Shown: positions 22,946-51,529 of the stretch, piece by piece | Layout of the letters: the number at the start of each line of letters is the position of its first letter | Position numbering within the stretch: the stretch's first letter is position 1 | NCBI RefSeq assembly: GCF_024734405.1 | Contig: NZ_CP059556.1 | Location: forward strand, 1,116,001 to 1,180,000 | Origin: Saccharopolyspora gregorii | GTDB lineage: Bacteria; Actinomycetota; Actinomycetes; Mycobacteriales; Pseudonocardiaceae | DNA: 64,000 bases | Direction of reading: 5' to 3' | Position numbers and translations under genes: made by a program | The notes under the pieces: generated by a model | Told to the model about the DNA's origin: nothing | Databases searched by the model: none | The model's input: the letters and a program-made list of their open reading frames with translations, nothing else

Positions 22946-24382
22946 TCACGGTGCGGGGTGGGTGGGGCAGTGCTTCTCCACCCCCGGCACCACCCCCTCC
23001 ACCAAGTACCGCTCCGCAGCAGAGTCGAGGCAGTCGTCGCGTTGGCTGGCGAAGGCCCCGTGGGAGCGGCTGCCGTCGAGGACGACGAGGCTGGATCCGG
23101 GGAGCCGTCGTTGCATGCGCCGCGCGCCGTCGAGGGGCGTGGTCGGGTCGTGTTCGGCTTGGGTGAGCAGCACGGGTGGCATGTCGGGGTGCCCGAGCCG
23201 GGTGGTTTCGCGGGGCGGCGCCCAGTAGGCGCAGGTGGCGGCTTCGAGCCCGGTGAGGACGGGTTGGGGGTCGACGGCGCGCAGCGCGCGGATGCTGCCG
23301 ATGACGTCGGCGGGCCGGGGTCGGGTGCTGTCGGCGCATTTGATGGTGCGCAGCGCGGATTCGTAGTTGTGGTCGTCGGGTTCGGCGGGGCGCAGCGCGG
23401 CGTCGTCGCCGGTGCGGACGTAGTGGCTGAGGGCTTGTGCGAAGGGTTCCCACCGTTCGGTGCGGGAGAGGGTGCGGTAGACGACGCGGTCGAATTCGTC
23501 GGGGCCGAAGGTGTCGTGGGGGAGTGCGGCGCGGGTGTCGAGGTAGTGCTGCCGGACGGTGCGCCGGTCGTGGCCGAGTCCGAGCCCGGGCCGGGCGGCG
23601 ATCCAGTCGAAGAGCGCGTCGCGTTGTTCGATCATGGCGAGGGCTTGGCGGGTGTCGAAGTCGTACCAGTCGTCGGGGCTGACGACGCTGTCGAGCACCA
23701 TGCGGCCGACGTGCCGGGGGTGGTGGGCGGCGTAGGCGGCGCCGAGGTAGGTGCCGTAGGAGACGCCGAGGTAGTTGAGCCGCGGTTCGCGCAGTGCGAG
23801 CCGGATCCGTTCCATGTCGTGCGCGGTGTTGGTGGTGTTGATGTGGGTGAGCGCGGCCCCGATGCCGCGCGCGCAATCGTCGGCGATGGCGCGGAGTCCG
23901 CGCAGGTGGGCGCGCTCCTGTTCGGGATCGGTGGGCACCGGATCGGGCCGGGGGTGCTGGTAGAGCCCGCCGGCGGGTCCGCAGTCGACGGGGGCGCTGC
24001 GGCCGGTGCCGCGCGGGTCGAAGCCGATGATGTCGTAGCTGCGTTGGACGGCGGTGGGGAGTTTGGCGCGTTTGCTCTCGGCGTAGTCGGTGCCGGTGCC
24101 GCCGGGTCCGCCGGGGTTGACGAGGAGTGCGCCGCGTCGTTCTTCGGGTGTGCCGCTGGCGGGGATGCGGGTGAGGGCGAGGGTGATGGTCGGCCCGTCG
24201 GGGGCGGCGTGGTCGAGCGGGACCCGCAAGTGTCCGCATTGGACTGATGGATCGTTGGCGATTCCGTCCGGGCAGGGGCCGAATCCGGGGTCGGGCGCCG
24301 CCGTGGCGGCGGGGGCGGGCGCGAGTGCGGCGAGCAGCAGGGTGAGCAGCGGGATGGTGCCGCCGCGACGCGAGATGAACAC
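22946..24382 (-). CDS. Secreted alpha/beta hydrolase, tripeptidyl-aminopeptidase (TAP) family
   Basis: 478 aa. An N-terminal signal peptide (IPLLTLLLAALAPAPAATAA) is followed by the TAP-type fold. The oxyanion segment is LLVNPGGPGGTGTDY, the nucleophile is in YLGVSYGTYLGAAY, and the acid and histidine are in AEHDPTTPLDGARRM and SRSHGAFAS. A C-terminal TAP domain with several cysteines is present. Streptomyces and related bacteria secrete such enzymes to trim extracellular peptides or activate proenzymes. Its start lies only 48 bp from the Zur-like box of the divergent operon, so that box might influence both genes. Confidence 0.88.
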   Translation of the reverse strand: MFISRRGGTIPLLTLLLAALAPAPAATAAPDPGFGPCPDGIANDPSVQCGHLRVPLDHAAPDGPTITLALTRIPASGTPEERRGALLVNPGGPGGTGTDYAESKRAKLPTAVQRSYDIIGFDPRGTGRSAPVDCGPAGGLYQHPRPDPVPTDPEQERAHLRGLRAIADDCARGIGAALTHINTTNTAHDMERIRLALREPRLNYLGVSYGTYLGAAYAAHHPRHVGRMVLDSVVSPDDWYDFDTRQALAMIEQRDALFDWIAARPGLGLGHDRRTVRQHYLDTRAALPHDTFGPDEFDRVVYRTLSRTERWEPFAQALSHYVRTGDDAALRPAEPDDHNYESALRTIKCADSTRPRPADVIGSIRALRAVDPQPVLTGLEAATCAYWAPPRETTRLGHPDMPPVLLTQAEHDPTTPLDGARRMQRRLPGSSLVVLDGSRSHGAFASQRDDCLDSAAERYLVEGVVPGVEKHCPTHPAP

Positions 24383-24430
24383 GCTGAGTGACTCCAGTGC
24401 TACCTGAATGGGGTTTGCGAAGGAGTATTG

Positions 24431-24449
24431 AACATGATTATCGTTACCG
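24431..24449 (+). promoter_or_regulatory. Fur-family (Zur-like) box, biosynthetic operon
   Basis: GAACATGATTATCGTTACC, arranged as 9-1-9 with inner halves ATGAT and ATCGT. It matches 14 of 19 positions of the classical Fur/Zur palindrome GATAATGATAATCATTATC and stands out as AT-rich in GC-rich DNA. It lies 34 bp before the first gene of the operon. Actinobacterial iron regulation uses a different box, so zinc is the likelier signal. Confidence 0.65.
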
Positions 24450-24482
24450 TCCGCTAGTGGTAAACCATGCGGAGGAGTCGGA

Positions 24483-25751
24483 GTGGGTCACCTGCTGATG
24501 GTGGAAAGCTGGGTCGGGGCGATGAGCACCCTGCTGCCCAGAGGTATCCGGGACGGAGGCCACCGCTTCAGCTTCCTCACCCGGGACGTGCACCACTACC
24601 TGCGTGCCTGGAACCGGCCGGGCGCCCACCCGCTGCTCGGCGCGCAGAACGTGCTCACCGCCGAGACCAACGACGTGCCGTCCCTCGTGGAGCACGTGGC
24701 GAAGTTGCAGCCCGCGCTCCGGTTCGACGGCGTGCTCACCTCCTGCGACTACTACCTGGGCGCGGTCGCGCACCTCGCGCGGCACCTCGGCCTGCCGGGA
24801 TCTCCGCCGGAAGCGGTGGAGCTGGCCTGCAACAAGGACCGGACCCGGCTGGCGTTGCGCGAAGCGGGAGTTCCCGGGCCCGCGTTCGCGCTCGCCGACA
24901 GCGCGTCCGGGCTCCGCGAAGCGGCCGTCGCCCTCGGCTTCCCGCTCGTGGTCAAACCGGTCGACCTGTGCGCGGGCATGTTCGTGCGCAAGGTGTCCGA
25001 CGAAGCCGAACTAGCCGAAGCCGTTCGTGACCTGGAGGGCTTCCCGGTGAACGCCCGCGGCCAGCGCCGCAGCCCCACGGTGCTGCTGGAGGAACTGCTC
25101 ACCGGGCCGGAAGTGAGCGTCGAAGCCGTCACCTCCCACGGACGAACGACCGTCATCGGCGTGACCGACAAGAGCGTCGGCGGCGCACCCTGGTTCGTTG
25201 AGACCGGGCACATGTTCCCCGCCGCCCTCGACGCCGCCACCGAACGAGCCGCCACCTCGATCGCCGTCGACGCCATCGCCGCGCTCGGCCTCGACAACAC
25301 GGTCACCCACACCGAGCTCAAGCTCACCCCCGACGGGCCGCGCATCGTCGAGGTCAACCCGCGTCCCGCGGGCAACCAGATCACCGAGCTGATCCGCCGC
25401 GTCACCGGCATCGACCTGCCCGCGGTGCACGCCCGGCTCGCCGCCGGCGAACAGCCCGACCTGGCGCCGCACGCCACCGGTGCGGGCAGCGCGGCCATCT
25501 CGTTCCTGCTGCCGCCGCGCACCGGCCCGATCCGGCACATCGCCGGAGCCGAGCGGCTCGCCGGGACCGAGGGCGTCGTCGACAGCGTCGTCAAGGAACC
25601 CGGGCACGTGGCAGGCGCGGCGACCAGCAACAACAACTACCTCGGCCACGTGCTGGCCACCGATCCGGCACCCGGGGCCGCGCGGGCTCGCGCCGAGGCG
25701 GCCGTCGGCTCCCTGGAAGTCGTCTACGCCGAGGATCTGGTCACCGCATGA
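24483..25751 (+). CDS. ATP-grasp ligase, first gene of the metallophore operon
   Basis: 422 aa. A pre-ATP-grasp domain (1-115) is followed by the ATP-binding domain with the nucleotide lysine in [19 protein letters not shown], the loop [20 protein letters not shown], and metal ligands in [20 protein letters not shown] (Glu, Asn). It resembles carboxylate-amine ligases that make peptide-like bonds on small molecules. GTG 24483 has a GGAGG six bases upstream. Its stop overlaps the next start (ATGA). It probably joins an amino acid product of the downstream PLP enzyme to another amino or carboxylate group. The exact substrates cannot be read from the sequence. Confidence 0.85.
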
Positions 25752-26578
25752 AGGACGCCTTCCTGTCACTGGACGGGTTCGCGGCGGCCGTGGGCGAGGG
25801 GTTCGCGGGCGACGAGGTCGGCGAAGCGGAGGTGAGCGTCGGCTTCCTCACCCAGCAAGGCGTCCGCCATTCCGGGCGTGGCCGCTCCTACCGGAACCAC
25901 GTGCTGAGCCTCCGCGTCGAGGACGCCGTCGGCTCCTGCGCGGTGGAACCCGGGGAACTCACCGACGAGCAGGTCGTGGACTGCGTAGGCGCCCCCGTCG
26001 GGCGGCTGCTGCGGCACCCGCTGCCCGCGGTGCGCACCGCGGCGCTGGACGCCTACCTGATGTGGCGGTTCCCGCACCACGAGCACGCCGAGCAGGTCGC
26101 GCTGGAGCGCGGGAACTCGCTGCGGAAGTCCTTGCAGCGCGCCGAACTCGTCGTGGACCTGCTGCCGGACCAGGTGAACCGGGTGCTCGTGGTCGGGGTG
26201 GTGAACTCGCTGCTGCACCGGCTCCGGCACCGCGACCTCGACTACGTCCCCTGCGACCGCAAGGGCGGCAGTACCGAATGGGACGAGCCCATCGTCGGCG
26301 ACGCCATGGCCGCCGTCGACGGCTGCGACGCCGTGCTCGCCACCGGGATGCTCGCGGCGGGCGACACGTTCGCGCCGCTGCTGGAACACGTGCGCGCCAC
26401 CGGAAAGCCGCTGGTCATGTTCGCCCAGACCGCGAGCGCGATCCTGCCGTGGTTCATCGGATCCGGCGTCACCGCCGTCTCGGCCGAGCCCTACCCGTTC
26501 TTCTGGCTCGACGGCGGCCCCGGCTCGATCTACCGCCACCGCGCCCCGATCACCCCGACCGGGAAGGACCCCCGTTGA
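25748..26578 (+). CDS. DUF4213/DUF364 (putative heavy-metal chelation) protein
   Basis: 276 aa. The N-terminal 75 residues ([20 protein letters not shown]) resemble DUF4213, an enolase-N-like fold. The rest ([58 protein letters not shown]) fits the DUF364 Rossmann-like domain. The family is annotated as possible metal-binding from structure, and its reaction is unknown. It is translationally coupled on both sides (ATGA and TTGA overlaps). In this locus it may handle the metal or the chelate, or carry out a biosynthetic step. The first 25 bases closely resemble half of the local REPIN. Confidence 0.75.
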
Positions 26579-27660
26579 TCGACGTGAGCACGAGCCCGGC
26601 CAGCACCCCCAACCCGGACCTGCTGGAGCTGATGCGCGACACCCCGGTCACCAGGGTCAGCACCCCGCTGCCGGACCACCACCCCGGATTCTGGGCGAAG
26701 CTCGAATGCCTCGGCGCGGGCGGCATGAAGGCGCGCGCCGCCATGTCCATGCTGCGCGGGGCCCGTGCCCGCGGGGAACTCCGGCCCGGCGCGCCCGTCG
26801 TCGAATCCACCAGCGGCACCCTCGGTGTCGGACTCGCCTTCGCCGGCCAAGCCCTCGGCCACCCCGTGGTGCTGGTCGTCGACCGGGAACTGGAACGCAG
26901 CATGCGGTCGCTGCTGCGCGCCCACGGCGTCCGCACCGAGGTCGTCGACCGCCCGCACCCCGTCGGAGGCTGGCAGCAGGCCCGGCTGGACCGGGTGCAC
27001 GAGCTGTGCGCGGAACTGCCCGGCTCCTACTGGCCCGACCAGTACAACAACCCGGACAACCCGGCGGGCTACGAGCGGCTCGCCGAAGAGCTCGTCGCCC
27101 AGCTCGGCACCGCCGACACCCTCGTGTGCAGTGTCGGGTCCGGTGGGCACAGCGCAGGCGTCATCCGCACGTTGCGCAGGCACTGGCCGCGGCTGCGGCT
27201 GATCGGCGTGGACACCGTCGGCTCCACGATCTTCGGGCAGCCCGCGCGGCGGCGGCTCATGCGGGGACTCGGCAGCAGCATCTTCCCCCGCAACGTCGCC
27301 TACCCCGAATTCGACGAAGTGCACTGGATCGGCCCGGCGGAGGCCGTCGACGCCTGCCGCAGGCTCGCCGCCCACTCCTTCGTCAGCGGGGGCTGGAGCA
27401 CCGGTGCGGTCGCGCTCGTCGCCGCGTGGGCCGCGCGGCGCGACCCCGGATCCCGCGTCGCCACCGTCTTCCCCGACGGCCCGCACCGCTACCTCGACAC
27501 CATCTTCGACGACGAGTTCTGCCAGGAGCACGGCCTGCTCGGCGGACGACCCGCGACGCGTCCCGTCGAGATCGCCGACCCGGCCGCGGTCGAAGTGCAC
27601 GGCTGGGCCCGCTGCCGCGCGGTCCGCGACCCCGCCGGATCGGTGGAGGTGCCCGCGTGA
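26575..27660 (+). CDS. SbnA-like PLP-dependent cysteine-synthase-family enzyme
   Basis: 361 aa from TTG 26575, or 358 from GTG 26584. The PLP lysine is in [14 protein letters not shown] (Lys52), the phosphate-gripping asparagine position is in [16 protein letters not shown], and the glycine-rich phosphate loop is [16 protein letters not shown]. Family members perform beta-replacement on O-acetyl- or O-phosphoserine. SbnA makes N-(1-amino-1-carboxyethyl)-glutamate, a diaminopropionate precursor. An enzyme of this type would supply an unusual beta-amino or beta-substituted amino acid as a metal-ligand building block. TTG 26575 overlaps the previous stop and has GGAAGGA six bases upstream. Confidence 0.85.
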
Positions 27661-28685
27661 AGCTCAGCGCACGCACCGGAACCCTGCGGCTGCGCGAGCC
27701 GTTCCGGATCTCCCGCTCCGTCATGCACGAACGGGACGCGGTGTGGATCGACCTCGAACACGGCGGCCGCACCGGGCACGGCGAAGCCGTCACCAGCGTC
27801 TACTACGACCTCGACGTGCCGCGGATCCTCGACCGGCTCGATGCGCTGCGCCCGCACGTCGAGAGCTGCACCGGACCCGACGAGCTCCTCACCGGCATCG
27901 ACGACTGGCCGGACGTCGAACCGGGAGTGCGCTGCGCCGTCGACGCCGCCGCCCACGACCTCGCCGCGCAGCACAGCGGCCGGACCGTGCAGGACCTCAT
28001 CGGCGCACCACCCGTCGGCGAGCCCGCGACCGCCCGCACCATCGGCATCACCGGCACCGAGCACGCCGCGCGCACCGCGGCCGAGCTCACCGCCCGCGGA
28101 TTCCGCGTCCTCAAGGTGAAGCTCGGCGACGGCCCCGACGAACAGGACCGGGTCGCCGCCGTCCGCGCCGCCGCCCCCGACGCGCAACTGCTGCTCGACC
28201 CCAACGGTGCGTGGGAACCCGAGCAGGCGCTGCGCCTGCTCGACGCCCTCGCCGTGCACGACATCGCGGCTGTCGAACAACCCATCCCGCCCGGCGACCC
28301 CGTCGAACTCGGCCGCGTCGCCCGGCACAGCCCCATTCCGGTGATCGCCGACGAGGACGCGCAGACCCTCGCCGACGTCCGGGCGCTCGGCTCGACCGTG
28401 CACGGGATCAACGTGAAACTCGCCAAGTGCGGCGGGATCCGCGCCGCCGTCGAGATCATCGACGCCGCGCGGTCCGCCGGGGCCGACGTGATGCTCGGAT
28501 GCCTCGTCGCCAGTTCCCTCGGCATCGCACCCGCCGTGCACCTCGCCGGACACGCCCGCTGGATCGACCTCGACGGGCACCTGCTGCTCGCCGACGACCC
28601 GTGGGACGGCATCGGCGGCACCGGCGGGACGCTGCACATCACCCGCGAGCCCGGGCTCGGCGTGCGGCCGAAGGTGGCGGCATGA
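27657..28685 (+). CDS. Enolase-superfamily dipeptide epimerase-like enzyme (MLE subgroup)
   Basis: 342 aa. The muconate-lactonising subgroup residues are all in place: KxK (Lys153, Lys155 in VLKVKLG), metal ligands Asp181 (LLDPNGAWE), Glu207 (AAVEQPIP) and Asp232 (VIADEDA), and Lys254 ([11 protein letters not shown]). Near the C-terminus [10 protein letters not shown] carries the DxD motif that binds the dipeptide alpha-amine in Ala-Glu-type epimerases. It therefore probably epimerises an alpha-carbon in a dipeptide-like intermediate, putting a D-centre into the product. The start overlaps the previous stop (GTGA). Expected fold length is normal and no catalytic residue is missing. Confidence 0.88.
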
Positions 28686-29971
28686 CCACCTGGCGGCTCA
28701 TCCGGAGCTTCCCGCTCGCGGTGCAGGTGCTGCTGATCAACCAGCTCGGGGTCAACATCGGCTTCTACCTGCTCATCCCGTACCTCGCCGGCTACCTCGG
28801 GCACGACCTCGGCATGTCCGCGGCGCTCGTCGGCGTGGTGCTCGGGGTGCGCAACCTCAGCCAGCAAGGGCTGTTCCTCATCGGCGGCAGCGCCGCCGAC
28901 CGGCTCGGGGCGCGTCGCGTCATCATCGCCGGCTGCGCGCTGCGCACCGTCGGGTTCGGGTTGTTCGCGCTCGGCAGCTCGCTGCCCGTGCTGCTCGCCG
29001 CCTCCGTCCTCAGCGGACTCGCCGGGGCGCTGTTCAACCCCGCGGTGCGCGCCTACCTCGCGCGCGAAGCGGGGGAGCGGCGAGCCGAAGCGTTCTCGCT
29101 GTTCAACGTGTTCGCCAACACCGGGGCGCTGATCGGGCCGCTGCTCGGCAGCGCACTCGTCCTCATCGGGTTCACCACGTCCGCGCTCGTCGCCGCGCTC
29201 GTGTTCGCACTGCTCACCGCCGCCCAGATCGCCGTGCTGCCGCGCCGGGACGTGCCGCCCTCGCGCGGCACCGTGCTCGGGGACTGGCGCGGCGTGCTCG
29301 GTGACAAGCGGTTCCTCCTGTTCACCCTCGCGCTGACCGGGATGTTCGCGCTGCAGAACCAGCTGTACCTGGTGCTGCCGATGGAAGCGGCCCGGCTCAC
29401 CGGATCCAGCGGCACCGTCGCCGCTGTGTTCATCGTGTCCACAGTGGCCGGTCTGCTGCTGCAGGTGCGGATCACCCGGTACTTCCAGCGCACGTGGTCC
29501 CGGGGGAGCACCATCGCCGCAGGTATGGCGCTGATGGGGATCGCCTTCCTCGCCACCCTCGTCGCCGGCTTCGCGCTGCCCACCGCGACCTCCGTGCCCG
29601 ACCCGGTCGGCGTGCTGCTGCGGCTCGGCCCCGTGCTGCTGGCCACCCTCGTGCTCACCACCGGGCTGATGCTGGCGCAACCCTTCGTCAACGACCTCAT
29701 TCCCTCGTTCGGGCCGAATTCGCTGTCCGGTACCTACTTCGGGGTCTTCTACCTGGCCTCCGGGGTGACCGCCGCGGCGGGCAACGCCGCCATCGGGTGG
29801 ATCAGCGACCTCGCCGGGACCACCGCGCCGTGGGCGCCGTCCGCGCTGTGCCTCGCGCTCGGACTGGTCTCAGCCGCCGCGGTCGCCCTGCTGCAGCGCC
29901 GTGGACTCGTCGGCCCGGAACCCGCCCCGCGACCAGGAGAGACCGCATGCGCGTCGACGCCAACTTCCTGA
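28682..29971 (+). CDS. MFS transporter, likely metallophore exporter
   Basis: 429 aa with about 12 hydrophobic segments. The loop between helices 2 and 3 shows the MFS motif GGSAADRLGARRV. The general layout resembles drug or siderophore exporters of the major facilitator superfamily. It sits between the epimerase and methyltransferase genes with start/stop overlaps on both sides (ATGA upstream, 25 bp downstream), so it is made together with the biosynthetic enzymes. Export of the finished apo-compound is the simplest reading, since an ABC importer follows downstream. Confidence 0.85.
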   Translation: MTTWRLIRSFPLAVQVLLINQLGVNIGFYLLIPYLAGYLGHDLGMSAALVGVVLGVRNLSQQGLFLIGGSAADRLGARRVIIAGCALRTVGFGLFALGSSLPVLLAASVLSGLAGALFNPAVRAYLAREAGERRAEAFSLFNVFANTGALIGPLLGSALVLIGFTTSALVAALVFALLTAAQIAVLPRRDVPPSRGTVLGDWRGVLGDKRFLLFTLALTGMFALQNQLYLVLPMEAARLTGSSGTVAAVFIVSTVAGLLLQVRITRYFQRTWSRGSTIAAGMALMGIAFLATLVAGFALPTATSVPDPVGVLLRLGPVLLATLVLTTGLMLAQPFVNDLIPSFGPNSLSGTYFGVFYLASGVTAAAGNAAIGWISDLAGTTAPWAPSALCLALGLVSAAAVALLQRRGLVGPEPAPRPGETACASTPTS

Positions 29972-30735
29972 CCGACAACCCCCGGCTGTACGAAGCGCAG
30001 TTCCCCGACCCCGAGCACCTCGCCGCACGATTCGTGCTCGACGTCCTCGCCCGCCGTGGCATCGGACACGGCACACTGCTCGACATCGGGTGCGGCACGG
30101 GGCGCGACGCCGCGCACTGGGCCCGGAGCGGTTTTCACGTCACCGGGATCGACAATTCGCCGCGCATGATCGAACACGCCCGGGCGCACTGCCCCGGCGG
30201 CACCTTCCACCAGCGCGACATGCGCGAATTCCAGCTGGATCGCACGTTCGACGCGATCACTTGCCTGGACAGCGCATTCCTCTACTGCCACACCAACGAC
30301 GAACTCGATTCCTTCCTCGGGCGGTGCCGGGACCATCTCCGTCCCGGCGGGGTGCTCGTCGCCGAAATGCGCAACGGTGCGTTCTTCCTCGGGAGCACCG
30401 AACTGCTCGACGGAATTCGCGAGCGGACAGTCGAATGGGAAGGCGTGCCGTACCGGTCGCGAACCCGGCTGTGGATCGACCACGCCGAACAGCTGCTGCG
30501 CCGAGAACGGGTGTGGGACTGGCCCGGGTGCGAGCGGGAACTCACTCAACGCTCCGCCTGGCGACTGCTCTTCCCGCAAGAACTGCGTCGCATCCTGCAC
30601 CAAGCGGGGTTCGAAGTGCTCGACCTCTTCGACCACCCCGGCCCGCGCACGGAACCGCCCTGGCACGCCGACGCGGCCCTCGGCACGTCGCTCGCGGGGG
30701 ATCGGTTGCACCTGGTGGCCCGCCGCCCCACCTGA
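29947..30735 (+). CDS. Class I SAM-dependent methyltransferase
   Basis: 262 aa. Motif I is LLDIGCGTGRDAAHW, the acidic end of strand 2 is VTGIDNSPRMI, and motif IV/post-IV is DAITCLDSAFLY and HLRPGGVLVAEM. It overlaps the MFS gene by 25 bp and has AGGAGA eight bases before ATG 29947. As the last gene of the operon it may N- or O-methylate the small molecule, or act on an intermediate. The C-terminal substrate domain gives no recognisable specificity. The operon ends with a perfect REPIN palindrome ten bases after its stop. Confidence 0.85.
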   Translation: MRVDANFLTDNPRLYEAQFPDPEHLAARFVLDVLARRGIGHGTLLDIGCGTGRDAAHWARSGFHVTGIDNSPRMIEHARAHCPGGTFHQRDMREFQLDRTFDAITCLDSAFLYCHTNDELDSFLGRCRDHLRPGGVLVAEMRNGAFFLGSTELLDGIRERTVEWEGVPYRSRTRLWIDHAEQLLRRERVWDWPGCERELTQRSAWRLLFPQELRRILHQAGFEVLDLFDHPGPRTEPPWHADAALGTSLAGDRLHLVARRPT

Positions 30736-30744
30736 CCAGCGGGT

Positions 30745-30796
30745 GCGTGCAAGGGAACCTTCCTGTCACCGGTGACAGGAAGGTTCCCTTGCACGC
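30745..30796 (+). repeat. Perfect 52-bp REPIN palindrome
   Basis: Two 26-bp arms are exact reverse complements, with outer arms GCGTGC and GCACGC not seen in the other copies. It separates the biosynthetic operon from the importer operon and could terminate or protect the upstream transcript. Confidence 0.95.
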
Positions 30797-30828
30797 GACG
30801 TGAGGAAGATCGCTTGCTGGGAGTTCTT

Positions 30829-30847
30829 GAAAAGTATTATCGTTTTC
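30829..30847 (+). promoter_or_regulatory. Fur-family (Zur-like) box, importer operon
   Basis: GAAAAGTATTATCGTTTTC is an AT-rich 9-1-9 palindrome with seven of nine arm positions paired (GAAAANNAT on each strand). It is 62 bp before the solute-binding protein start. It is the most symmetrical of the three boxes and close to the TGAAAAT-type Zur sites of actinobacteria. Confidence 0.72.
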
Positions 30848-30909
30848 TTTTGGTGTTGCGGTGGGCTGCGCCGGCGTTGCAGGTGATGGGACGGAATGGA
30901 GAACCGCGC

Positions 30910-32484
30910 ATGGAGTCCGACGGATCGGCTGCTGGCTCTTCCACCGGCGGGGCGGTGACCAGGCGGGGTTTCCTGGGGTTCACCGCAGCGGCCGCATTCG
31001 TGGGAATGTCGGGTTGCGCGGCGGGTGGCTCCGGTTCGACCGCGGGCCCGCCGAAGCCGGGCGGCCGGTTGCGGGCGGTGTTCCCCGGCGGCGGAGCCGA
31101 CGAGGTGCTGGACCCGCACGCCACGAACCTCTACGCCGAGGTGGCCCGCGCCAAGGCGCTGTTCGACAAGCTCGCCGACTACGGCTCCGACATGTCCCCG
31201 CAACCCCGGCTGGCCGAGCGGTGGGAGTCGAGTCCGGACCTGCGGACGTGGCGGGTACCGCTGCGCGAGGCCACGTTCCACGACGGACGGCCGGTGCGCG
31301 CCGCTGATGTGCTGGCGAGCTACGCGCGCATCCTGCGTCCGGACAGCACTCGACGGGCTAAGGCGAGTCTGTCCGTGATCGACCTGCAGGGCAGCCGCGC
31401 GATCGACGACCGCACCGTTGAGTTCCGGTTGAAGCGGCCGTACGCCGAGTTCCCGAACGCGCTCGCCACCTTGGGCGCCTACATCGTTCCGGAGGGCGCG
31501 GAGAACTTCGAGCGCCCCGTCGGTTCGGGCCCGTTCCGGTTCACCTCGTTCGAACCGGGGCGCAGCTTCCTCGTCGCCCGCAATCCGAACTACTGGGAGG
31601 GCGCGCCGCTGCTCGACGAGCTCGAAATCCTGGTGAGCAACGACGAAGCGGCCCGGGTGAACGCGCTGCTGGGTGATCAAGCGGACTACGCGCACGACCT
31701 GACCGCCACCACCGCCCGCAGCCACGAGGCGGCGGGGCAGATCAACATCCACCGGTTACCGCTGAGCAATTTCCACTCGCTGGCGATGAAGGTGGACCGG
31801 CCCCCGTTCGATCGACTGGAGGTCCGGCAGGCGTTCTTCCACTTGGTCGACCGCGAAGAACTGGTCCGTTCGGTGCTGCAGGGCTCGGGCGAGGTGGCCA
31901 ATGACCTGTTCGGCAAGAACTACCAGTACTACGACGCTGAGCTCCCGCAGCGGCGGCAGGACCTGGCGAAGGCGAAAGAGCTGCTGCGCCGTGCGGACGC
32001 GGAGAACCTGCGGGTCGAGCTGCTCACCTCCGAAGCCTCTCCCGGCTTGCGGGAAGCGGCGCTGGCGTTCGCCGACCAGGCGAAGCTCGCGGGCGTCACG
32101 ATCGACGTGACCTTGGGGAACAAGGACACCTACTGGTCGGACATCGGCGAGCAGGGGTCCATCGTCAGCTACCGGTCCGGCGCGATGCCGATCGAGTCGC
32201 ACCTCTCGCAGCGGCTGCTGTCGAGCTCGACGACGAACAACACCAAGTGGCAGCGTCCCGAGTTCGACGCGCTCTACCAGCAGGCGCAGTCCACTTCGGA
32301 CGAGAACGCGCGCGCCGGGCTCTACCGGGAGATGCAGCGCACGCTCTTCGAAGAGGGCGGCTTCCTGTGGTGGGGCGTGTCGGATTGGATCGTGGCGTCG
32401 GCGAACAGGGTCGGCGGCATCGATGACGGCGCCCCCGCGAACACCCTGGATTGGGCGCGTTTCGACAAGGTGTGGCTGGGGTGA
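30910..32484 (+). CDS. ABC importer solute-binding lipoprotein (SBP_bac_5, Opp/Nik type)
   Basis: 524 aa. A twin-arginine signal (Arg18-Arg19 in VTRRGFLGF) is joined to a lipobox (MSGC, Cys36), so it is a Tat-exported, lipid-anchored binding protein. The mature part has SBP_bac_5 features such as ATFHDGRPVRAADVLASYAR and VARNPNYWEGAPLLDELE. These receptors bind peptides, opines or nickel/zinc-ligand complexes. ATG 30910 has GGAGA seven bases upstream, while the reading from ATG 30886 lacks one. The Zur-like box and the neighbouring biosynthetic operon suggest that it binds the metal-loaded product. Confidence 0.88.
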   Translation: MESDGSAAGSSTGGAVTRRGFLGFTAAAAFVGMSGCAAGGSGSTAGPPKPGGRLRAVFPGGGADEVLDPHATNLYAEVARAKALFDKLADYGSDMSPQPRLAERWESSPDLRTWRVPLREATFHDGRPVRAADVLASYARILRPDSTRRAKASLSVIDLQGSRAIDDRTVEFRLKRPYAEFPNALATLGAYIVPEGAENFERPVGSGPFRFTSFEPGRSFLVARNPNYWEGAPLLDELEILVSNDEAARVNALLGDQADYAHDLTATTARSHEAAGQINIHRLPLSNFHSLAMKVDRPPFDRLEVRQAFFHLVDREELVRSVLQGSGEVANDLFGKNYQYYDAELPQRRQDLAKAKELLRRADAENLRVELLTSEASPGLREAALAFADQAKLAGVTIDVTLGNKDTYWSDIGEQGSIVSYRSGAMPIESHLSQRLLSSSTTNNTKWQRPEFDALYQQAQSTSDENARAGLYREMQRTLFEEGGFLWWGVSDWIVASANRVGGIDDGAPANTLDWARFDKVWLG

Positions 32485-33428
32485 GCATTCCGGGCTACAT
32501 CGCCCGGCGAGTGCTGCTGGGGTTCGTGCAGGTCTTCCTGGTCATGGTCGTCGTGTTCTTCTTGACCGAGGCATTGCCCGGTGACGCGGCCGTCACCATC
32601 GCCGGGGACGATCCGGACCCGGCGGTCATCGCGTTGCTGCGGGAGCAGCTCGGGTTGAACGCGCCGGTGTGGGAACGCCTCGGTGGCTGGATGCTCGCGG
32701 CGTCGCAAGGAGATTTCGGCCGGTCCTTGGTGGGTCCGCGTTCGGTGCTGGACATCATCGGCTCTTCCGTGGGCCCCACCTTGTTGCTGGCGGCGCTCAC
32801 CTTGGCGTTGATCGTGCCGGTGTCGCTCGGACTCGGCGTGCTGGCGGCGAACCGGGAAGGCCGGCTCACCGACCGCCTCATCACCTCCACCACGCTCGGT
32901 CTGTACTCGGTGCCGGAATTCGCCATGGGGATCCTGCTGGTCACCGTGTTCGCCGTTCAGCTCGGCTGGTTGCCGCCGACCGCCGTGGGCGGCGGCGGGC
33001 TGCTGAGCCGCCCGGCGGTTTTGGTGCTGCCGGTGCTGGTGCTGCTGCTGCGCCCGATCTGCTCGCTGAGCAGGCTGGTCCGCGCCGGCATGATCGACGC
33101 GTTGCGGTCCGGGTACGTCCGGCAGGCGCGCCGAGCCGGGCTCGCGCCGCTGCGGGTGCAGTTCGCGCACGCGCTGCCGAACGCGGTCGTGCCCGCGATG
33201 CAGCAACTCGCCCGCACGACGGACTGGCTCATCGGCGGCGTCATCGTCGTGGAGGCGATCTTCGTGGTCCCAGGACTGGGCACCACGTTGATCGATGCCG
33301 TGTCCGCGCGCGACCTGCCGGTGGTGCAAGGGTTGTCCTTGGTGCTGGCCGTCGTGACGGTCCTGGTGAACCTGGTGGCGGACATCGTCGCCCGGATCCT
33401 GGCTCCTGCCGCGGAGGACGACCGATGA
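32481..33428 (+). CDS. ABC transporter permease (DppB/OppB/NikB type)
   Basis: 315 aa with six membrane segments. The N-terminal IARRVLLGFVQVFLVMVVVF and the periplasmic loop EALPGDAA are typical of the first Opp/Nik permease. The EAA-like loop is SGYVRQARRAGLAPLRVQFAHALPNAV. GTG 32481 overlaps the stop of the binding protein (GTGA). It pairs with the next permease to form the channel. Confidence 0.9.
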   Translation: MSIPGYIARRVLLGFVQVFLVMVVVFFLTEALPGDAAVTIAGDDPDPAVIALLREQLGLNAPVWERLGGWMLAASQGDFGRSLVGPRSVLDIIGSSVGPTLLLAALTLALIVPVSLGLGVLAANREGRLTDRLITSTTLGLYSVPEFAMGILLVTVFAVQLGWLPPTAVGGGGLLSRPAVLVLPVLVLLLRPICSLSRLVRAGMIDALRSGYVRQARRAGLAPLRVQFAHALPNAVVPAMQQLARTTDWLIGGVIVVEAIFVVPGLGTTLIDAVSARDLPVVQGLSLVLAVVTVLVNLVADIVARILAPAAEDDR

Positions 33429-34231
33429 GAAGCCTGCTCAGGCCCGGGGTGCTGGTTCCCGGCATCCTGATCGCCGTGCCGCTGCTGCTGGCCGTGTTCG
33501 GCCCGCTGTTCGCTTCGGGGGCGGTGGCAAAGGACGTCGCGTTCAGCAGCGGGGCCGGCCACCTGTTCGGCACCGACTTCGTCGGCCGGGACGTGTGGAA
33601 CGAAGTCCTGCTCGGCGGTCGTTCGGTGGTGCTGGTCGCCGTGGCCGCCACGGTGTGCACGTACGCCGTGGCCGTGCCGATCGGCGTGGCAGTCGGGATG
33701 AACCGGGCCAGGTTCGTCGACGAGGTGGTGATGCGGCCGCTGGACGTCCTGCTCGCCATCCCTTCGATGCTCCTGCTGCTGTTGCTGGCCTCCGCCGCAC
33801 CGAACGTCGGCTGGGTGCTGGTCGCGATCGTCACCGTCATCAACCTTCCGGACGTCATCAGAATTTCCAGGGCTTCGACGCTCTCGCTCTCCGCACGTCC
33901 GGCCGTGGAGGCCATGCGCATGCAGGGGGAGAGCCGCGTTCGCATCGGACTCGGCTACGTGGTGCGCGCGATGGCGCGCACGCTGGCCGCGGACTCGGGC
34001 ACCAGGTTCACCGGAGCGATCTACCTCGTCGCCTCGGCGAGCTTCCTGGGTGTGGGGGTGTCGCCGCAGGCCAGCGATTGGGCGGCCATGGTGGACCGCA
34101 ACCGCACGGGCCTGTTCCTGCAGCCGTGGGCTGTCGTGCTGCCCGCGTTGCTGATCGTGGCATTGTCGGTAGGTGTGAACTTGGCTTTCGACCAGCTGCT
34201 GCGCAGGAAACGGCGAGAGGTGCGCGCGTGA
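33425..34231 (+). CDS. ABC transporter permease (DppC/OppC/NikC type)
   Basis: 268 aa with about six membrane segments. It contains the family marker HLFGTDFVGRDVWNEVLLGG and the EAA loop AVEAMRMQGESRVRIGLGYV. ATG 33425 overlaps the previous stop (ATGA). It is the second permease of the same importer and is followed by the ATPase gene with another GTGA overlap. Confidence 0.9.
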   Translation: MRSLLRPGVLVPGILIAVPLLLAVFGPLFASGAVAKDVAFSSGAGHLFGTDFVGRDVWNEVLLGGRSVVLVAVAATVCTYAVAVPIGVAVGMNRARFVDEVVMRPLDVLLAIPSMLLLLLLASAAPNVGWVLVAIVTVINLPDVIRISRASTLSLSARPAVEAMRMQGESRVRIGLGYVVRAMARTLAADSGTRFTGAIYLVASASFLGVGVSPQASDWAAMVDRNRTGLFLQPWAVVLPALLIVALSVGVNLAFDQLLRRKRREVRA

Positions 34232-35799
34232 ACGTCGTCGAGGTCGGCGGGCTGAACGTCTCGCTCGATTCCCGGCCCCTGGTGTCCGATGTCTCGTTCG
34301 CGATGGCAGCGGGTGAGGTGACCGCGCTCGTCGGTGAATCCGGCAGCGGCAAGACCACGACCGGGCTCGCCCTGCTCGGTGAACACCCGGCCGGGGCGCG
34401 CGTCGACGGTGAGGTCACCGTGGCCGGGCACCCGGTCGGTCCGGGTCGGCCGCCGGCGGCGGGGCACCTCGGATACATCCCGCAGCACCCCGCGGCCGCG
34501 TTGAACCCGGTGCGGCGGGTCGGTTCGGTCTTGCGGGAGATCGCTCGCCGCCACCTGGGGCCGGTCGCGCGCTCCGAGCGCAAGGAACTGGTGCGGGCCC
34601 GGGTCACCACTGCGCTGCGCCGGGCGCAGCTCCCCGACGGGCAGGCGCTGCTCGACCGCTACCCGCACCAGCTCTCCGGGGGACAGCAGCAGCGGATCGT
34701 GCTGGCCCAAGCGCTGGTCTGCGATCCGGCCGTGGTGATCGCGGACGAACCGACGACCGGGCAGGACGCGTTGACCCGCGCCCAGATCGTCGAAGAGCTG
34801 CGCGGTCTCGCGGACCAGGGCATCGCTGTGCTGCTGCTCACCCACGACCTCGACGTGGTGCGGCAGTTGGCGCACCGGGTGCTGGTCATGCGTGGCGGAG
34901 CCGTCGTCGAATCGGGCCCGGCCGCGGCGGTGCTCGGCTCCCCGGAGCACGCCTACACGCGGCTGCTCGTCGAATCCCAGCCCGACACCAGAGCGCCACT
35001 GGCACCTGCCGAGGACGACCGCGAACCGCCGGTTCTCGCCGCGAACGACCTGGTCGCCGGTCACCGGGGCCGGGGCAGGAAGGTCGAGACGCTGCACGGG
35101 ATGTCGCTGGACGTCGGCCGGGGCAGGCGGATCGCCGTGGTCGGCCGCTCCGGCAGCGGCAAGACGACGCTGGCCCGGTGCCTCGCCGGACTGCACCCGC
35201 CGCGGCGAGGGACGATCGTGCTCGACGGAATACCGCTGGCCGCGCGCCTGAGCGGGCGCAGCAGGGAGCAGCTGGCCGACGTCCAGTACGTCTTCCAGGA
35301 CGCGCGCGCTTCGTTCAACGAGTTCGCGCCCGTGCTCGACCAGGTAGCGCGGACCGCCGAACGGCTCCGCGGGGTCGACCGGCAGCAGGCGCGGCGACGG
35401 GCGGCGGAGTGGTTCGAACGCGTCGGGCTCGACGCGGAGATCACCGCACGGCGGCCCGATTCCCTCTCCGGGGGTGAGTTGCAACGCGCTGCCCTGGTGC
35501 GCGCACTGCTTGCCGAACCGCGGGTGCTGATCTGTGACGAGATCACCTCCGGGCTCGACACCGTCACCCAGGCCGAGCTGCTCGTCCTGCTCAAGGAGCT
35601 GCAGCGGACCGCGGAGTGCGCCTTGGTGCTGATCACCCATGACCTCGGGGTCGTGGCCGATCTCGCCGAGCACGTCATGATCGTCGACGGTGGGTGCATC
35701 GTCGAGCAGGGTGCTGCTTCGGAAGTGCTGCGTGCGCCACGACATCCGATGACGAGCGCGCTGGTCGAGGCCGCGACGAGCCGGATCAGCCAGGCCTAG
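34228..35799 (+). CDS. Fused double ATPase of the Opp/Nik-type importer
   Basis: 523 aa, two complete ABC domains in one chain. Domain 1: Walker A GESGSGKTT (36-44), signature LSGGQQQRI, Walker B VVIADEPT. Domain 2: Walker A GRSGSGKTT (about 306-314), signature LSGGELQRA, Walker B VLICDEIT. In most Opp/Nik systems these are two separate genes (D and F, or D and E). Fusion is common in actinobacteria. It energises uptake through the two preceding permeases. All sites needed for ATP hydrolysis appear intact. Confidence 0.92.
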   Translation: MNVVEVGGLNVSLDSRPLVSDVSFAMAAGEVTALVGESGSGKTTTGLALLGEHPAGARVDGEVTVAGHPVGPGRPPAAGHLGYIPQHPAAALNPVRRVGSVLREIARRHLGPVARSERKELVRARVTTALRRAQLPDGQALLDRYPHQLSGGQQQRIVLAQALVCDPAVVIADEPTTGQDALTRAQIVEELRGLADQGIAVLLLTHDLDVVRQLAHRVLVMRGGAVVESGPAAAVLGSPEHAYTRLLVESQPDTRAPLAPAEDDREPPVLAANDLVAGHRGRGRKVETLHGMSLDVGRGRRIAVVGRSGSGKTTLARCLAGLHPPRRGTIVLDGIPLAARLSGRSREQLADVQYVFQDARASFNEFAPVLDQVARTAERLRGVDRQQARRRAAEWFERVGLDAEITARRPDSLSGGELQRAALVRALLAEPRVLICDEITSGLDTVTQAELLVLLKELQRTAECALVLITHDLGVVADLAEHVMIVDGGCIVEQGAASEVLRAPRHPMTSALVEAATSRISQA

Positions 35800-35930
35800 G
35801 CCGGGAAGTTCGCGGTGTCGCCGAGCGGGGAGGTGCTTGGAGGGGGACATGCCTCCATGCTTCCCCGTCGAACGCGCGTTCGCATCGCTCGAGCGGGTAG
35901 GAACGGGGCCACACGATCTCGCAGCCGAGA

Positions 35931-36542
35931 TCACCCGGCGTAATCGACGTCCGGGAACGCGAAGGCGGCTTCCCCTGGGCGGGCGGAGGACCGGCCCGGG
36001 ATCGGGATCTCGAAGTGGACGCTCGGGCTGTACCGGGAGTCCTCCCGGGCGTCGTAGATCTCCGTCGCGGCGCTGCGCCAGAACGGCGCCGCACCCTCGA
36101 TCGCCGGATTCGTGTGCAGGTAGATCGTCGAATATTCGGGCGTGTCGGCGACGAAGTCGCACGCCATCGACACCAGCGCGCTCGCCAGGCCGTTGCGGCG
36201 GTGCTGCCGGTCCACGTACACCCGGAACAGCTGCGCGGTGCTGCCGTCCCCGTACCGGGCCGCGAGCCACTCGGGGTGCGGGGGACAGCGCGGGCCGCCG
36301 GAGCGGATCGCCGTGGTCGCGGCGACCTCGCCGTCGCGCACCGCGACGAACAGCGCGTGCCGCGGGTTCTTCAGGTACGCGCCCTCGATGTCCACGACGT
36401 CGGAGTGCCAGCGGGCGTGGTAGCCGTGGCCGAACTCCTTGTAGAACGTGTCGAGCATGACCCGGCGCGCGCCTTCGACGTCCTCCGGGCGGGCGCGGCG
36501 CACCGCGTACTCGCCGATCCGGTGCTCTTCCTGGTGATCCAT
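35931..36542 (-). CDS. GNAT-family N-acetyltransferase with a Zur-like box
   Basis: 203 aa from ATG 36542, after GGAGAGC. The acetyl-CoA-binding motif A is in FRVYVDRQHRRNGLASALVS, preceded by GEVAATTAIRSGG. The C-terminal EYSTIYLHTNPAIEGAAPFW is typical of small-molecule or amino-acid acetyltransferases. It faces the importer operon convergently, and its promoter carries the third Zur-like palindrome. It may therefore acetylate the metallophore or an intermediate, or modify it for release of metal or self-protection. The substrate is inferred only from context. Confidence 0.82.
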   Translation of the reverse strand: MDHQEEHRIGEYAVRRARPEDVEGARRVMLDTFYKEFGHGYHARWHSDVVDIEGAYLKNPRHALFVAVRDGEVAATTAIRSGGPRCPPHPEWLAARYGDGSTAQLFRVYVDRQHRRNGLASALVSMACDFVADTPEYSTIYLHTNPAIEGAAPFWRSAATEIYDAREDSRYSPSVHFEIPIPGRSSARPGEAAFAFPDVDYAG

Positions 36543-36610
36543 GTGCTCTCCATCGGGCTCTCGCGCCTGAGTCGCGAGCGAACGCGACTCCCGGTGCGCC
36601 GCGGCCACAA

Positions 36611-36629
36611 TACAATGACTCTCATTTTC
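36611..36629 (-). promoter_or_regulatory. Fur-family (Zur-like) box, GNAT gene
   Basis: On the minus strand GAAAATGAGAGTCATTGTA, embedded in a longer AT-rich tract. Inner arms AATGA and TCATT pair perfectly. It lies 68 bp before the GNAT start and matches the other two boxes in length and layout. Confidence 0.65.
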
Positions 36630-36670
36630 AATAAGTCCGGGGTGTGGCGCAAAGGCCGCAATGATCATCG

Positions 36671-51256: not shown

Positions 51257-51529
51257 CCGGACCGTGAGGTCACGCAGCGCAGGGCACAGCACGGGATCAA
51301 GGATGCTGGCGGACCGGCCCGTTCGCACCGCGTCGCGGCGGCCGCTCGGCGGGCGGTCGCCTGCCCGCGCCGGGCGGTCGGGCGAGCCGCTCGCCAGGAA
51401 TAACGTGCTCGGCGACTGCGTTCCAGGTCAGCGCCTTCGGTCTGGCAGAATGACAGGCCGAGTCGGCTCCGGTTCACCTCGCGATGATCGTCGGCGAGGA
51501 CCCGGCGGCCCCGAACAGGAGGACACGCG

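Follow-up and report, generated by a model that had tools for sequence, protein, structure and literature searches.

The DNA analysed here (the window) is a stretch of 64,000 nucleotides at 1.116-1.180 Mb of the 6.34-Mb genome of Saccharopolyspora gregorii, a soil actinomycete, and it carries a locus resembling a zinc-regulated metallophore system. Six synthetic genes form one overlapping head-to-tail run on the plus strand. They are followed by a four-gene Opp/Nik-type importer and by a GNAT gene on the minus strand, an arrangement proposed in the initial annotation and confirmed by coordinates and domain scans. The first gene (24483–25751) encodes an ATP-grasp L-amino acid ligase with Pfam matches to ATP-grasp_4 (2e-20) and LAL_C2 (60.3 bits for a cut-off of 29.4, the combination expected of this ligase family) and with BL00235 and BacD as relatives in the PDB. 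Next come a DUF364 (PF04016) family protein (25748–26578), identified by profile and AlphaFold fold match, and an SbnA-like pyridoxal phosphate (PLP) enzyme (26575–27660), whose best NCBIfam model, the SbnA (2,3-diaminopropionate) equivalog TIGR03945, scored 250.3 bits, below its cut-off of 349.95. The run continues with an epimerase of the muconate lactonizing enzyme (MLE) subgroup, likely of the dipeptide type (27657–28685; MR_MLE_C 5e-38), an MdtH-like exporter of the major facilitator superfamily (MFS) (28682–29956; MFS_1 1e-34; NCBIfam MdtH 154 bits, below cut-off) and a class I S-adenosylmethionine-dependent methyltransferase (29947–30735; Methyltransf_25 6e-21).

The importer, also on the plus strand, comprises a substrate-binding protein (SBP) of Opp/Nik family 5 (30910–32484; SBP_bac_5 4e-76; best NCBIfam model of the NikA type, below cut-off), ATP-binding cassette (ABC) permeases 1 (32463–33428; BPD_transp_1 5e-30) and 2 (33425–34231; BPD_transp_1 2e-19), and a fused double ATPase similar to NikD, CntD and CntF (34228–35799). 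In the latter, ABC_tran matched in two stretches and the NikD model gave 349.7 bits against a cut-off of 318.7. The GNAT acetyltransferase gene (35931–36542, minus strand; Acetyltransf_1 3e-12) was placed by homologue alignments. Since most homologue matches begin at residues 41-54 of the longest open reading frame (39/48 and 11/15), the start is probably at 36542 and not at 36668.

Each of the three units (synthetic run, importer and GNAT) is preceded by one box. Box 1 (24429–24445, plus strand) differs from the consensus at one position and lies between the ATP-grasp gene and a divergent gene for a TAP-like alpha/beta hydrolase (22946–24382, minus strand; Abhydrolase_1 4e-20, TAP-like 2e-17). 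Box 2 (30828–30844, plus strand), upstream of the importer, has two mismatches and scored 21.7 with a position weight matrix, and box 3 (36614–36630, minus strand), upstream of the GNAT gene, has three mismatches and scored 18.4, both sites being outside the training set of the matrix. Unsupervised motif discovery on the regions preceding the ATP-grasp gene in 94 loci, the window's among them, returned aAaTGAaAATGATTATCgTTa. This motif agrees with the Streptomyces coelicolor Zur motif tGaNNatSatNNtCa and with the actinobacterial znuA palindrome, both as given in excerpts of one report (PMC5472717), and the boxes show at the promoter the 7-1-7 palindrome typical of Zur sites. In the window, the consensus TGAAAATGATTATCRTT (up to three mismatches) occurs only at the three units (24429, 30828 and 36614); shuffled windows gave 0.01 matches on average and none of 100 shuffles reached three. 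The published 15-bp Zur motif (at most one mismatch) recovered boxes 1 and 3 together with two unrelated sites, 4337 and 38908, which have no match to the longer consensus, and box 2 departs from it at three positions by hand count. Among five genus relatives checked, box 2 was present in three and box 3 in none (up to three mismatches).

At the scale of the whole 6.34-Mb genome, the consensus (again with up to three mismatches) gave eight matches and the reversed control none. Three of the eight lie at the present locus. Of the others, one precedes a ribosomal L36 gene and one a znuB-type ABC-3 permease gene; another sits between an L33-S14-S18 run and a divergent cobW gene followed by L31 and L32 genes, and the last two lie at a non-ribosomal peptide synthetase (NRPS) metallophore locus. 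The accessible text of PMC6103462 names ribosomal paralogues, relatives of yciC/cobW, znuABC and coelibactin among actinobacterial Zur targets, and the L36, znuB-type and cobW-L31-L32/L33-S14-S18 sites are thus of established kinds in the same genome. Because the five others match expected Zur target kinds, all eight matches lie at the present locus or at genes of the zinc-starvation type. The box is therefore very probably a Zur box, and zinc control of the locus, a claim of the initial annotation, appears highly likely from these genomic comparisons, which include the recurrence of the first box in other genomes described below.

The boxed NRPS locus lies at about 2.522-2.537 Mb (L167:4853-13380 and L225:1370-6844, in our numbering of loci). 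Its NRPS has condensation, AMP-binding, methyltransferase and thioesterase domains, and the accompanying genes encode a chorismate-binding enzyme, an Irp3-like thiazolinyl imine reductase, a glyoxalase-like protein and an Opp-type (SBP_bac_5) importer.

Zinc could also be the signal only, with a Zur-controlled metallophore carrying mainly nickel, cobalt, iron or several metals. The nearest models of the importer are indeed of the nickel and staphylopine types, and opine metallophores are broad in metal range. However, the boxes are shared with ribosomal paralogue genes, cobW and the znuB-type permease, and we regard a cargo mainly other than zinc as quite unlikely, the search for iron-type sites (see below) having covered loci of two other architectures (types B and C).

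We next consider the enzymes. The window DUF364 protein scores 21.1 bits with PF04016, below the cut-off of 23. With a DUF364 profile, 37 of the 38 sequences of set A1 (window included) matched at E ≤ 0.001, the best at 8e-13, and the AlphaFold model (pLDDT, the predicted local distance difference test, of 93) has 3l5o and 3npg, both DUF364, as its top PDB matches. As judged by the profile of its relatives and by its predicted fold, the protein is a member of DUF364. Miller et al. suggested, in the available portion of their paper, that proteins of this family help to build chelators, siderophores for example, and might do so by condensing or hydrolysing side chains (PMC2954201); the present gene context supports this proposal without proving it. 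In the PLP enzyme, Lys52 is invariant among 19 sequences. The enzyme aligns by phmmer with the SbnA chains 5d84 and 5d87, the lysine being retained, and carries a Tyr where these have Tyr and Phe, and a Gly where they have Ser and Gly, respectively. The methyltransferase motif D46-x-G48-C-G-T-G-R-D is invariant among 18 sequences.

The epimerase residues K153/K155, D181, E207, D232, K254 and D304-x-D306 are invariant or nearly so among 34 sequences. A KxK motif, metal ligands (here Asp/Glu/Asp), a second Lys and a DxD for the substrate amine make up the motif set of the dipeptide epimerases of the MLE subgroup, and all were found. The DxD motif presumably suits dipeptides with a free amine. 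The best NCBIfam model for this protein was the N-acetyl-D-Glu racemase DgcA, below cut-off. Taken together, these enzyme features point to an intermediate resembling a dipeptide in which one centre is inverted. The epimerase residues and the ligase family are compatible with the earlier proposal of a chelator derived from amino acids and containing a D-centre, the product itself being a prediction from these enzymes.

Relatives of the DUF364 protein occur in all six genus genomes, with two copies each, and were matched in 28 of 249 genomes order-wide and 7 of 396 phylum-wide, with the window's own genome and every type of locus counted in. Carriers span many genera, including Streptomyces, Lentzea, Saccharothrix, Micromonospora, Nonomuraea and Frankia. 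Scanning GTDB genomes gave 286 encoding stretches, from which the best 80 were taken as named loci. Of these best 80 of 286, 72 contain all ten genes, and in 69 each gene occurs once, with gene order and strand conserved. The eight incomplete loci are two lacking the methyltransferase alone (L092 and L135), a 6.5-kb record (L155), one with runs of N (L095) and four with several cluster genes missing (L103, L105, L132 and L140). The box upstream of the ATP-grasp gene was present in 79/80 named loci, L095 being the exception, a count that is largely in-sample since the window and most named loci contributed to the 94 ATP-grasp upstream regions used to train the matrix. This training set had no SBP or GNAT sites, and neither the own-genome sites nor those of type C and of L218-L222 belonged to it.

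A GNAT relative (at least 40% identity) was found in 47/80 named loci. This bears on the idea of a zinc-regulated peptide antibiotic of the bacilysin or dapdiamide kind, in which the ligase would couple an amino acid to a warhead resembling diaminopropionate, the MFS protein would export the product and the GNAT would serve self-protection. The relationship of the ligase to BacD, its weak similarity to dapdiamide A synthase (22.9 bits), the MFS exporter and the frequency of the GNAT are in line with it. All 72 full-set loci, in contrast, contain the Nik/Opp importer within the cluster, the box is one common to zinc-starvation genes, and boxed loci of a different architecture (type C, see below) also pair DUF364 with an SbnA-like enzyme. 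An antibiotic product is rather unlikely on this balance.

A relative of the TAP-like gene is present in 29/80 named loci. Because the box lies upstream in all 29, this hydrolase may be a further member of the zinc response. A divergent hydrolase in 29/80 loci could also belong to a salvage system, in which foreign peptides or chelators enter through the importer, the enzymes degrade them and the MFS protein removes the waste; peptide recycling is a frequent role of MLE epimerases and Opp importers. The ATP-grasp ligase and the methyltransferase are, however, building enzymes, and no peptidase family was detected by Pfam scans among the operon's own genes, which leaves salvage very unlikely. 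The scanned neighbours include, besides the TAP-like hydrolase, a trypsin/PDZ protein, a patatin-like protein and an NmrA/DUF2867 protein. Elsewhere in the window, an L31-Actinobacteria ribosomal protein leader is located at 51463-51510.

Three architectures could be distinguished around DUF364. Type A is that of the present locus, with ligase, DUF364, SbnA-like PLP enzyme, epimerase, MFS exporter, methyltransferase and Opp/Nik importer. Type B (L041, L047, L048 and L058-L061) has DUF364, PLP enzyme and MFS protein without ligase, epimerase or methyltransferase, and an adjacent importer in 4/7 loci. Of the six second copies in the genus, three were fetched at length, and a weak DUF364 match of the order-wide sample (G244, 3.439 Mb) was left out. 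Two type B loci carry a site one mismatch away from the published 15-bp Zur motif, L058:382 and L060:14917, both distant from DUF364. The boxed importer of L167 was considered as the partner of type B, with the type B product as its cargo, and was dropped: its SBP is about equally distant from that of the window (31% identity) and from a type B SBP (32%), and the importer sits in the NRPS metallophore locus.

Type C comprises 17 loci of the order-wide sample (L062-L078) and two of the phylum-wide sample (L221 and L222). Its DUF364 proteins are 34-40% identical and its distant SbnA-like enzyme 27-34% (TIGR03945 134 bits in L066). Gene-by-gene annotation covered single loci: a GHMP kinase was seen in L062, a Peripla_BP_2 protein and a methyltransferase-like gene in L066 (the latter as a match just under cut-off), and an MFS gene in L066 and L071. 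The Peripla_BP_2 protein points to an importer of a different type from that of type A. With the matrix, trained without type C, a box scoring above 20 was found in 19/19 type C loci, and none above 15 in 17 shuffled loci. In sample trees, A, B and C form three supported groups for DUF364, and for the PLP enzyme B falls inside A and C very far away. Type C loci are possibly an independent zincophore family. One further locus of the phylum-wide sample (G479, L223) matched none of the cluster proteins at 1e-4. The DtxR/IdeR iron consensus (up to five mismatches), scanned in 17 type C and seven type B loci, gave one site in the C locus L065 (three mismatches) and one in the B locus L041 (two mismatches), the latter about 7 kb from DUF364, with no pattern across the scanned loci.

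We propose that the locus is a Zur-repressed zincophore system working without NRPS, NRPS-independent siderophore (NIS) synthetase or nicotianamine synthase enzymes, and give this reading, including its predicted product, a probability of roughly two in three. It is the best account because an exporter, an importer and zinc control occur together, and the intact catalytic residues of the PLP enzyme, methyltransferase and epimerase count in its favour, as do the conservation of the gene set among the named loci and the boxed pairing of DUF364 with an SbnA-like enzyme in type C. When zinc is scarce, the operons would be de-repressed through the boxes. The SbnA-like enzyme could then combine an activated serine with an amine nucleophile to an amino-acid adduct, as its family suggests, with the DUF364 protein possibly acting on the same intermediate. 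From their families and catalytic residues, the ATP-grasp ligase would couple this adduct to another amino acid, the MLE enzyme would invert one centre of the resulting dipeptide and the methyltransferase would complete the product. The MFS protein would export the chelator and the Nik/Opp-type importer would return the metal complex, an earlier suggestion which gains support from the presence of an exporter and a complete importer. The weakest step concerns the GNAT, which may modify the re-imported complex to release the metal or protect the cell. More broadly, DUF364 and the SbnA-like PLP enzyme could form the core of a widespread, unrecognised actinobacterial zincophore class, of which the present locus and type C would be two branches, the present one adding ligase, epimerase and methyltransferase; for this wider grouping we see the chances as even.

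Several observations weigh against the zincophore proposal. The statement in the initial annotation that each unit has a Zur-like box stands for this genome, with its three boxes, and fails as a general rule: an importer box was found in 5/74 loci with an SBP gene and a GNAT box in 2/47 loci with a GNAT. Scanning with the ATP-grasp motif (score above 12) gave 10/90 SBP upstream regions and 1/61 GNAT upstream regions, some GNAT starts being misplaced, and de novo motif searches upstream of these two genes returned what looks like coding sequence of the preceding genes. None of the seven type B loci has a box above 15 (best 13.4, remote), which shows that DUF364 can occur without a link to Zur. 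The PLP enzymes of types A and C are very distant from each other, so that the type C reaction may differ. Two-gene pairs of PLP enzyme and MFS protein without DUF364 or box exist in five of ten related genomes searched. Finally, because the genome encodes five Fur-family proteins, assignment of the box to Zur rests on the accompanying genes. Overall, what was initially observed at the locus is confirmed and its interpretation is partly supported.

If the zincophore proposal is true, DUF364, a family with a structure solved in 2010 without a known reaction, gains a testable role, and many genera possess a zinc metallophore outside NRPS and opine chemistry, of which, to our knowledge, few are known. 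The pathway might also be of use for making small biodegradable chelators of the ethylenediamine disuccinate (EDDS) kind.

Consistent with the initial failure to match the set to a characterised cluster, no published cluster of this gene content was found in the open-access literature, most subscription journals being outside this coverage. The [S,S]-EDDS pathway of Amycolatopsis japonicum is a Zur-controlled, non-NRPS, non-NIS route to a zinc chelator, according to the accessible text of PMC4993170 and PMC9252823. The present locus is similar in its probable Zur control, its actinomycete host and its non-NRPS, non-NIS character, EDDS being compared by description and not by genes. As a gene comparator the EDDS cluster was dropped; a PLP search of ten related genomes did not identify EDDS genes, and the 30 short loci from this search had no box above 14. 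The PLP and MFS pairs mentioned above, from five genomes of two related genera (L212-L216), in which the PLP enzymes are 60-62% identical, have neither ligase nor epimerase and no importer homologue directly adjoining. The class of aminopolycarboxylic acid metallophores in antiSMASH 7, to which we liken the locus by class description only, detects this sort of non-NRPS chelator, as stated in part of PMC10320115.

With the SbnA/SbnB step of staphyloferrin B, the likeness lies in a PLP enzyme nearest to SbnA among NCBIfam models, with the lysine kept. The locus differs in scoring below the SbnA cut-off, and its scanned genes include neither an SbnB-like gene of the ornithine cyclodeaminase type nor an NIS synthetase. 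More precisely, and as anticipated in the initial annotation, Pfam scans of the cluster genes and scanned neighbours gave no NRPS, IucA/IucC (NIS) synthetase or nicotianamine synthase. Opine metallophores (staphylopine and pseudopaline; cnt loci) combine export, Nik/Opp-type import and, in some cases, zinc control, as described in sections of PMC6103462. The present locus appears to share these three features, but Pfam and NCBIfam scans of the cluster genes gave neither a nicotianamine-synthase-like enzyme nor an opine dehydrogenase. Coelibactin, of the coelibactin/pyochelin type of NRPS zinc metallophores, is Zur-controlled (PMC6103462, in part), whereas the present locus has no NRPS and the boxed NRPS locus lies elsewhere in the genome. 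Dhaf4260 (3l5o) belongs to the same fold family as the window DUF364 protein, with 14% identity in structural alignment. From its gene content and boxes, the locus is predicted to be of a known kind, the Zur-regulated metallophore locus, with enzymes that differ from those of each class whose genes were compared.

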